Below are positions 43,144 to 47,595 of a DNA stretch of 64,000 bases, piece by piece (the stretch's first letter is position 1; each line of letters starts with the position of its first letter). The notes under the pieces were generated by a model. The model searched no databases and was not told where the DNA came from. It was given only the letters and a program-made list of their open reading frames with translations. Position numbers and translations under genes: made by a program. The stretch covers positions 1 through 64,000 of the forward strand of contig CACLDR010000001.1 in assembly GCA_902605755.1 (NCBI GenBank), given 5' to 3'. The stretch is from an uncultured Marinoscillum sp. Its GTDB lineage: Bacteria > Bacteroidota > Bacteroidia > Cytophagales > Cyclobacteriaceae.

Positions 43144-43401
43144 TTAATTCGAAGATTCGACATGGACATAAGATCTCTTTTGTCTTCCTTTTTTAAACTC
43201 TACTATTCCGTCAGTAAGTGCAAACAATGTATGATCTTTGCCCATTCCGACGTTGTTTCCAGGATGATGCTTGGTTCCGCGTTGACGGATGATAATATTT
43301 CCGGCAATAGCTTGTTGTCCACCAAATATTTTTACACCTAATCGTTTGCTTTCAGATTCTCTGCCGTTGTTCGAACTGCCTGCTCCTTTTTTATGTGCCA
43401 T
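43144..43401 (-). CDS. rpmA: 50S ribosomal protein L27
   Basis: [61 protein letters not shown]. Confidence 0.98.
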
Positions 43402-43410
43402 TTTTGATAA

Positions 43411-43719
43411 TTATTTTATATCTTCTATCAGTATTTTTGTAAATTGTTGCCGATGCCCATTTTTTGTACGATAGCCCTTGCGTCTCTTCTTTTTGAAAAC
43501 GATAACTTTTTCTCCTTTGACATGCTCTAGTACTTCTCCGGATACTTTAGCATTTTTTATAGATGGTGTACCTACTTTCACTTTTCCATTATTTTCGATG
43601 AGAAGTACTTGAGAAAACTTTAAAGAAGTTCCAACTTCAGCATCAATCAAAGGGGCATATATAAATTTATTTTTTTCTACTTTAAATTGCTTTCCAGCAA
43701 TTTCGACTATCGCGTACAT
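43411..43719 (-). CDS. rplU: 50S ribosomal protein L21
   Basis: MYAIVEIAGKQFKVEKNKFIYAPL...VIVFKKKRRKGYRTKNGHRQQFTKILI. Confidence 0.98.
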   Translation of the reverse strand: MYAIVEIAGKQFKVEKNKFIYAPLIDAEVGTSLKFSQVLLIENNGKVKVGTPSIKNAKVSGEVLEHVKGEKVIVFKKKRRKGYRTKNGHRQQFTKILIEDIK

Positions 43720-43803
43720 TTTTATCAGTTTAAAAAAGAGTGCAAATATAGGATTTTAGATTTAAAACCCAAAAGGTTTGCCCTTACAATAATTCATATT
43801 AGT

Positions 43804-44062
43804 TGTGGATAATTTTTTTTTATTTTTTTTTATTTTTTTTAACATCATTGAGGGCTGAAATAGATGCAAGTTTTTTTATTTTAATTACCGTTAAACTGTT
43901 TTAAATCAATGGGATATGTACTTATCCACAGTATTTATTACCTTTTACACTCTGTTGAAATGGATTTGTTTTTTAGGTATGATTTGGACAGATTTGTATA
44001 CGGAGTTAGATAAAGTAAATCACCACAATACTTTTGTTTACACAACTGACTTTGTATACACA
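43804..44062. promoter_or_regulatory. Cluster of DnaA-box-like 9-mers with a T-rich phased tract, upstream of nrdBA
   Basis: TGTGGATAA (43804-43812, perfect box, minus), T9A T9A T8 tract (43813-43840), TTATCCACA (43922-43930, perfect, plus), plus near matches TTTTACACT (43943-43951), GTTTACACA (44036-44044), GTATACACA (44054-44062). Confidence 0.6.
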
Positions 44063-44196: not shown

Positions 44197-45192
44197 ATGA
44201 GTAACCTAGAAGAAGTAGAATTAAAAAATGAACCAATTTTAAAAGAGAACAGCAATAGATTTGTTCTTTTCCCGATTGAGAATGACGATATTTGGAGTTA
44301 TTATAAAAAAGCAGAAGCAAGTTTTTGGACAGCCGAAGAGATAGACCTGGGGCAAGACTTAAAAGATTGGGCTACTCTGACGAGAGATGAACGACATTTT
44401 ATCAAGCATGTTTTGGCTTTTTTTGCAGCAAGCGACGGCATTGTTAATGAAAACTTAGCGGAAAATTTTGTTTCAGAGGTACAATATACTGAAGCAAAAT
44501 TCTTTTATGGGTTTCAGATTGCCATTGAGAATATTCATTCTGAAACTTATTCACTACTGATAGACACGTACGTAAAAGATGTTAAAGAAAAGGATGGACT
44601 CTTCAACGCATTAGAAACTATGGACTGTGTAAAGAAAAAGGGAGATTGGGCACTGAGATGGATTGATAAGGGTAATTTTGCGGAAAGATTAGTTGCTTTT
44701 GCAGCCGTCGAAGGTATCTTTTTTTCAGGAAGCTTTTGCTCTATATTTTGGTTGAAAAAAAGGGGTTTGATGCCGGGTTTAACTTTTTCAAATGAATTAA
44801 TCTCTAGAGATGAGGGGTTACATTGTGATTTTGCTTGTTTGCTATACAACAACCATCTAAATAATAAACTTAGTGAAGAAGCCATTCAAACCATCATTTC
44901 GGATGCTGTAACAATTGAAAAAGAATTTGTAACAGATGCGTTGCCAGTTAGATTAATCGGAATGAATGCTGAATTGATGTGTCAATATATAGAATTTGTT
45001 GCAGACCGGCTTTTAATGGAATTGAATTGTTCCAAAATATACCATTCAACGAATCCATTTGATTTCATGGAGATGATTTCTCTTCAAGGGAAGACGAATT
45101 TTTTTGAAAAAAGAGTCGGAGAATATCAAAAAGCAGGGGTTTTGAATTCTGAAAATGACAATGATAAATTCAGTCTTGACCATGACTTTTAA
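44197..45192 (+). CDS. nrdB: Ribonucleoside-diphosphate reductase subunit beta (class Ia)
   Basis: [55 protein letters not shown]. Confidence 0.96.
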
Positions 45193-45219: not shown

Positions 45220-47595
45220 ATGCTAGTACTAAAGAGAGACGGCCGGAGAGAATCAGTTAAGTTTGATAAGATTACTGCGAGAATTGAGAAGCTATGCACA
45301 GGACTCAACAGAGATTTTGTAGAGCCAGTTAAGATTGCCCAAAAAGTTATAGATGGCCTTTATGATGGAGTAAGTACTGTTCAATTAGACGACTTAGCAG
45401 CTGAAATTGCAGCATCTATGACTACGCGGCACCCAGACTTTGCCAAACTAGCTGCGAGAATTGCAATATCTAATTTACACAAAGTAACTTCAGGATCTTT
45501 CTCTAATACGATGAAACATATGTATACATATGTGGATGAGAAAACAGGAGAAAATGCACCTTTACTCTCTTCAATGACTTACGGGGTAATAAAAAGAAAT
45601 GCAAAAAAATTAGACGAGGTAATAGATTATGAACGTGATTTTAACTATGACTTTTTTGGATATAAAACCCTAGAAAGGGCTTATTTAATGCGGTTGAACG
45701 GTAAAATTGTAGAACGTCCTCAACACATGCTGATGCGGGTATCTTTAGGTATTCATGGAGAAGATATACAAGCAGCCATAGAAACTTACGATTTAATGTC
45801 AGAGAAGTGGTTTACACACGCTACGCCTACTTTATTCAACGCTGGAACTCCAAAGCCACAGCTTTCCTCATGTTTTTTGTTAACGATGCAGGATGATAGC
45901 ATAGATGGAATATATGATACGTTGAAGCAATGTGCAAAAATATCACAATCTGCCGGAGGTATCGGCTTGAGTATTCATAATGTGAGAGCAACTGGGGCAT
46001 ACATCAAAGGAACTAACGGAACTTCGAATGGTATTATTCCTATGCTCAGGAATTTTGATATGACCGCAAGGTATGTCGATCAAGGAGGAGGTAAAAGAAA
46101 AGGAAGTTTTGCTATTTATTTGGAACCATGGCATGCAGATATTTTTGAATTTCTTCAATTGAAGAAAAATCATGGGAAAGAGGAGTTGAGGGCAAGAGAT
46201 CTGTTTTATGCGATTTGGATTTCAGACCTATTTATGCGTAGAGTTGAAGAGAATGGAGATTGGTCACTTTTCAGTCCCAATGAGGCGAAAGGTTTAGAAG
46301 TTAATTACGGCGAGGGATTTGAGAAATTGTATAAGAAATATGAGCAAGAGGGAAAAGCACGAAGGGTAGTAAAGGCTCAGGATCTTTGGTTTGAGATCTT
46401 AGAGTCTCAAATTGAAACCGGTACCCCTTATGTTTTGTATAAGGATCACGCAAACAGGAAGTCTAATCAAAAGAATTTAGGTATTATCAAGTCCAGTAAT
46501 CTCTGTACTGAGATTATCGAATATACATCAAAAGATGAAGTTGCCGTTTGTAATCTGGCCTCTATTTCTCTTTCTAAGTTTGTAAAAGAAGATAAAACTT
46601 TTGATCATGAGAAACTTTATCAAATCACCAAAGTAGCGACCAAAAATCTCAATAAAGTAATAGACGTTAATTATTATCCAGTAAAGGAAGCAAAGACTTC
46701 AAATATGAGGCACCGGCCGATAGGTTTGGGAGTGCAAGGTTTGGCAGATGCATTCGTGATGATGCGACTTCCTTTTGAATCTGAACAAGCACAGCGCATC
46801 AATAGAGAGATTTTCGAAACCATCTATTTTGCCTCCATGGAAGCCTCCATGGAGCTTGCGCAGGTCGAAGGATCATATCAAACATACAAAGGGTCACCGG
46901 TTTCCAAAGGAATATTCCAATTTGATATGTGGGGAGTTACGCCCAACTCGGGTCGATGGGATTGGTATGATCTGAAGCAAAGAGTAAAAAAGTATGGAGT
47001 CAGAAACTCCTTGTTAGTAGCGCCTATGCCTACGGCCTCTACTTCACAAATACTTGGGAATAATGAATGTTTTGAACCCTTTACTTCTAATATGTATGTC
47101 CGTAGGGTGTTGTCTGGTGAGTTTATTGTAGCCAATAAGTATCTTATGCATGACTTGATTGGTTTAGGACTCTGGGATGATAATATGATGAACAAAATTA
47201 AAGCTGAAAATGGCTCCATACAAAATATAGCAGAGATTCCAGATGATATCAAGAAGCTATATAAGACTGTTTGGGAGATTTCTCAGAAAACTATCATTGA
47301 CATGTCTGCTGACCGAGGGGCTTACATTTGTCAAAGTCAAAGTTTGAATATCCATTTGATGAACGCTAACTTCGGAAAAATGACATCTATGCATTTTTAC
47401 GCTTGGAAAAAAGGGTTAAAAACAGGAATGTACTATTTGCGAACGAAAGCGGCTACTGATGCCATTAAATTTACTGTAACTAAAGAAGAAAATACTCAAC
47501 CCAAAGTAATGTCAATCAAAAAGACTGACCAAAATCAGCAAGCCATACAATGCTCGTTAGATGATCCAGAGGGATGCGAAATGTGCGGAAGTTAA
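45220..47595 (+). CDS. nrdA: Ribonucleoside-diphosphate reductase subunit alpha (class Ia)
   Basis: N-terminal ATP-cone, [21 protein letters not shown]-terminal [14 protein letters not shown]. Confidence 0.97.

Follow-up and report, generated by a model that had tools for sequence, protein, structure and literature searches.

Comparative analysis of an uncultured Marinoscillum sp. indicates that two DnaA boxes upstream of its class I ribonucleotide reductase (RNR) operon, nrdBA, likely bind DnaA and thereby adjust the transcription of nrdBA, with box 2 probably activating and box 1 either cooperating with it or serving the divergent gene rplU. The DNA analyzed, hereafter the window, is a stretch of 64,000 nucleotides from contig 1 (121 kb) of a metagenome-assembled genome that is 68% complete (1.76 Mb, 87 contigs) and closely related to uncultured marine Cyclobacteriaceae/Flammeovirgaceae (Bacteroidota). 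A preliminary description of this DNA had raised two possibilities for the region, a DnaA-controlled RNR promoter and a replication origin. The predicted DnaA control is well supported comparatively by a geometry that is fixed across the genus, the enrichment of boxes at nrdB across families, the changing gene neighbors of these boxes, and boxes at dnaB.

Table 1. Genes, DnaA boxes and predicted promoter elements around the rplU-nrdB intergenic region (window positions)
Feature	Position	Strand	Basis
rpmA (L27), next after rplU	43144-43401	divergent from nrdBA	PF01016
rplU (L21), divergent from nrdB	43411..43719	-	PF00829
Predicted -7 element TATATTTG, rplU promoter	43743..43750	-	sequence; congener alignment
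Predicted -33 element TTTG, rplU promoter, 19-bp spacer	43770..43773	-	sequence
DnaA box 1, perfect TTATCCACA	43804..43812	-	pattern match; conserved in congeners
T9-A-T9-A-T8 tract, directly adjoining box 1	43813..43840	.	sequence
DnaA box 2, perfect TTATCCACA	43922..43930	+	inside 11-bp run ACTTATCCACA, same in 9/9 congeners
Predicted -33 element TTTG, nrdB promoter, 20-bp spacer	43965..43968	+	sequence; consensus PMC7366714
Predicted -7 element CAGATTTG (consensus TAnnTTTG), nrdB promoter	43989..43996	+	ATTTGTA same in 9/9 congeners
nrdB, class I RNR small chain	44197..45192	+	PF00268; PDB search: nearest solved relatives are eukaryotic R2
nrdA, large chain with N-terminal ATP-cone	45220..47595	+	PF02867, PF00317, PF03477

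The intergenic region between rplU and nrdB spans 477 bp and is best read as containing the promoters from which nrdBA and rplU-rpmA are transcribed divergently. When NrdB was compared with PDB entries, mammalian and yeast R2 proteins matched with E values down to 1e-153, and bacterial small chains with 1e-34 or weaker. This eukaryotic R2 type fits the proposal that marine Bacteroidetes obtained their class I RNR from eukaryotes (PMC3019208). An Rfam search of the window found no RNA element.

Both perfect TTATCCACA boxes, in opposite orientation, are present as first described, and they are the only perfect matches in the 64-kb window. A first-order Markov model predicts 0.008 perfect boxes for the intergenic region, where two were observed, and none of 1000 Markov simulations of the region contained two. 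The T-tract beside the first box was likewise found. However, the three near-match boxes of the preliminary description were not reproduced: the intergenic region holds no one-mismatch box, and its two two-mismatch boxes represent background level (2.2 expected). The direct repeat TTTGTATAC does occur at 43993 and 44051, but it does not appear to add structure to the locus. We consider it incidental, since one copy, the first, overlies the -7 promoter element and most congeners lack the repeat. Lastly, pattern searches of the whole window genome returned 25 perfect boxes and 20 matches to the reversed word, so that the box is not enriched genome-wide. This implies that the location and conservation of the boxes are informative and that their frequency is not.

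Conservation in relatives was examined in the nine congeneric genomes with nrdB, whose nrdB loci were set to one orientation before comparison. All nine retain both boxes. Box 2 is fully invariant, and box 1 is perfect in eight, with a single change (TCATCCACA) in G001. The box starts are separated by 118-120 bp throughout, and a conserved -7 element, ATTTGTA, follows box 2 at 69 bp in 9/9, with an ungapped alignment in between. The box spacing was kept even though the T-tract that separates the boxes is variable and intergenic identity to the most distant congener (G007) is 0.50. The nine-genome alignment contains five identical runs of at least 7 bases and no others: TTGTGGAT in the box 1 core, two T-runs at the ends of the T-tract, ACTTATCCACA at box 2, and ATTTGTA. 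The tract itself keeps its homopolymer character and a length of ~28-30 bp in the congeners, and its exact sequence varies (T run or T-A-T run). DnaA, with its canonical GGRDHSTV signature, is encoded in 9/9 congeners searched. We did not detect dnaA in the 68%-complete assembly of the window genome, where it presumably lies in a gap.

The conserved ATTTGTA forms part of a predicted CAGATTTG/CACATTTG -7 element with TTTG 20 bp upstream, which fits the sigma-ABfr consensus TTTG / TAnnTTTG (PMC7366714). On the other strand, the predicted rplU promoter reads TTTG-N19-TATATTTG, and box 1 stands at a constant distance from this -7 element in the congener alignment. The center of box 2 falls at about -74 from the predicted nrdB start, and that of box 1 at about -68 from the predicted rplU start. 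These positions suggest a near-symmetry in which each box would read toward its nearer predicted promoter. An RNR operon, nrdBA, has DnaA boxes in its promoter region; selection has kept them at set distances from the predicted promoter, and the lineage encodes DnaA.

We propose that DnaA at box 2, centered at about -74 from the nrdB start predicted here, would contact or stabilize RNA polymerase and probably activate nrdBA. Box 1, 118-120 bp off and in opposite orientation, may cooperate with box 2 across the DNA with the aid of the stiff AT tract; alternatively, it may act likewise on rplU, whose predicted start lies ~68 bp downstream of it. Abundant active DnaA, at initiation or when replication stalls, would then alter the dNTP supply correspondingly. 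DnaA binding, activation over repression, and box-box cooperation are inferred from sequence. Because E. coli DnaA both activates and represses nrdAB by its nucleotide state (PMC8203912), the sign of regulation at this nrdBA could differ. As the box positions are evolutionarily fixed, the supply of building blocks is probably tied to replication.

Perfect boxes also mark nrdB beyond the genus. Among 48 non-genus genomes of the order, we found 13 perfect boxes within 500 bp upstream of nrdB, distributed over 9 genomes (19%) from five families. The same 48 genomes yielded 1 perfect box in the adjoining 45 kb, and the reversed word gave 0. When 400 anagrams of the box were searched upstream of nrdB in these genomes, the mean was 0.20 and the maximum 3, versus 13 for the box itself. 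The resulting density upstream of nrdB, 0.54 per kb, is ~18-fold above a congener's non-coding background of 0.03 per kb. In 79 GTDB loci, 20 boxes were counted in 39 kb upstream of nrdB versus 3 in 479 kb elsewhere; this second set shares species with the 48 genomes and is not independent of them. The occurrence of a perfect box in just 9/48 outgroup genomes indicates that the wiring is patchy, and the number, orientation and spacing of boxes differ between families. As read from open reading frames, the upstream neighbor of a boxed nrdB is rplU in many genomes and a ComF-like, CorA-like or other gene in several. This persistence next to neighbors other than rplU suggests that the boxes travel with nrdB.

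Few perfect boxes in non-coding DNA align among G000, G007 and G008, namely the nrdB pair, a pair between nqrF and rpoN, a site at a ClC-channel gene, and a dnaB/dnaQ-like site. Perfect boxes were present upstream of dnaB in 6/7 congeners tested and in 6/19 outgroups (dnaB loci L327-L352). In G008, a dnaQ-like gene belongs to the operon divergent from the dnaB-side box (G008:C16:23557, L243); in G007, the box remains with the dnaQ-like gene and dnaB is located elsewhere. After the ClC-channel gene, a conserved box is followed by AT-rich repeats (TGTGGATAACTATTAACTTATTGATTATTAATTTATTATG; G000:C35:14398-14465, G003:C5:72330-72397, G007:C108:51012-51118). This site has an origin-like look and was considered as a candidate for the true origin, but it lies away from the skew minimum. 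Between nqrF and rpoN, ~31 kb from nrdB, two perfect boxes converge 25-26 bp apart (G003:C5:640056-640090; G000:C1:74578). This pair is kept in five congeners, one of its boxes being degenerate in G000, adjoins no replication gene, and is possibly a titration or regulatory site.

The nrdB pair could itself titrate or reactivate DnaA in the manner of datA/DARS, lying at nrdB by chance and governing free or active DnaA instead of nrdBA. Two divergent boxes at a set spacing could point to a DnaA assembly, and the convergent nqrF-rpoN boxes provide a second conserved pair without a replication gene alongside. We nevertheless regard titration as unlikely, since it leaves unexplained both the nrdB enrichment across families with changing neighbors and the constant 69 bp between box 2 and the -7 element, and the site has just two boxes.

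Lower still is the probability that a transcription factor other than DnaA reads the TTWTCCACA word. Some Saprospiraceae/Lewinella nrdB loci contain tight palindromic pairs, TTWTCCACA N1-3 TGTGGAWAA, which are unusual for DnaA, but this word is that of the DnaA box, and it also marks dnaB. NrdR, for which a search had been suggested, was rejected as the regulator of nrdBA: TIGR00244 was found in 0/30 relatives, and the same search was positive in 9/14 control genomes. Moreover, the NrdR operator core differs from the DnaA box.

It is very improbable that the boxes control rplU-rpmA and not nrdBA. Although box 1 reads toward rplU at a constant distance from its -7 element, the fully invariant box is box 2, and the boxes stay at nrdB where the neighbor is not rplU. 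As for the proposed replication origin, GC skew has no sign change or minimum at nrdB. In 10-kb steps, it is positive along the 121-kb contig except for a flat stretch at 90-120 kb; on an 869-kb contig of the congener G003, cumulative skew climbs steadily through nrdB (608 kb) and has its minimum at ~130-300 kb, the GC skew staying positive for ~300 kb on one side of nrdB and 260 kb on the other. Despite two perfect boxes that adjoin a 28-bp T-rich tract and could evoke an AT-rich unwinding element, a chromosomal origin is scarcely credible and a standard bidirectional origin at this locus is refuted, given the skew, a box number short of an oriC-type cluster (just two, without any intergenic one-mismatch box), and the retention of boxes at nrdB in different gene neighborhoods.

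Taken as sites of DnaA control, the boxes invite comparison with known systems. In our best reading, the nrdBA region would resemble E. coli nrdAB in logic and differ from it in layout. In both, DnaA boxes precede the promoter of a class I RNR operon. E. coli nrdAB has three DnaA boxes, one of them ATP-DnaA-specific (PMC8203912), and it reportedly also needs an AT-rich sequence upstream (Sun et al. 1994, cited in PMC8203912). In contrast, the Marinoscillum locus has two perfect boxes far apart, in opposite orientation and between divergent operons, together with a eukaryote-like RNR, a Bacteroidota-kind promoter, and a lack of detectable NrdR in the relatives searched. In Caulobacter crescentus, nrdAB, dnaQ and dnaB are named in connection with DnaA control, which is proposed for nrdAB, with boxes predicted for dnaQ and dnaB (PMC8203912). 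Similarly, nrd and dnaB carry boxes here and a dnaQ-like gene lies near the dnaB box of G008, whereas the phylum and the RNR differ, and the Caulobacter case includes expression evidence. For Bacillus subtilis, a Firmicute system, control of RNR genes by DnaA was likewise proposed (Goranov et al. 2005, as reported in PMC8203912). The literature that we searched contained no account of DnaA boxes at nrd in Bacteroidota, which by itself is not proof that none exists.

So far, DnaA control of RNR has been demonstrated in E. coli, with proposals for Bacillus and Caulobacter. A conserved counterpart in Bacteroidota, with a eukaryotic-type RNR and no NrdR found, would, if true, suggest that the coupling of initiator and dNTP supply arose repeatedly. 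The exact bases for mutation are now defined and can be used in cultivated relatives with boxes upstream of nrdB, namely Ohtaekwangia koreensis, Lishizhenia tianjinensis and Adhaeribacter aerolatus. More tentatively, we suggest that in much of the order, and perhaps more widely in the seemingly NrdR-less Bacteroidota, DnaA may be a recurrent regulator that couples replication to the supply of dNTPs, through a eukaryote-type RNR thought to be laterally acquired, and of helicase, through dnaB; in this genus, nrdBA would share a divergent module of two boxes with a ribosomal protein operon.
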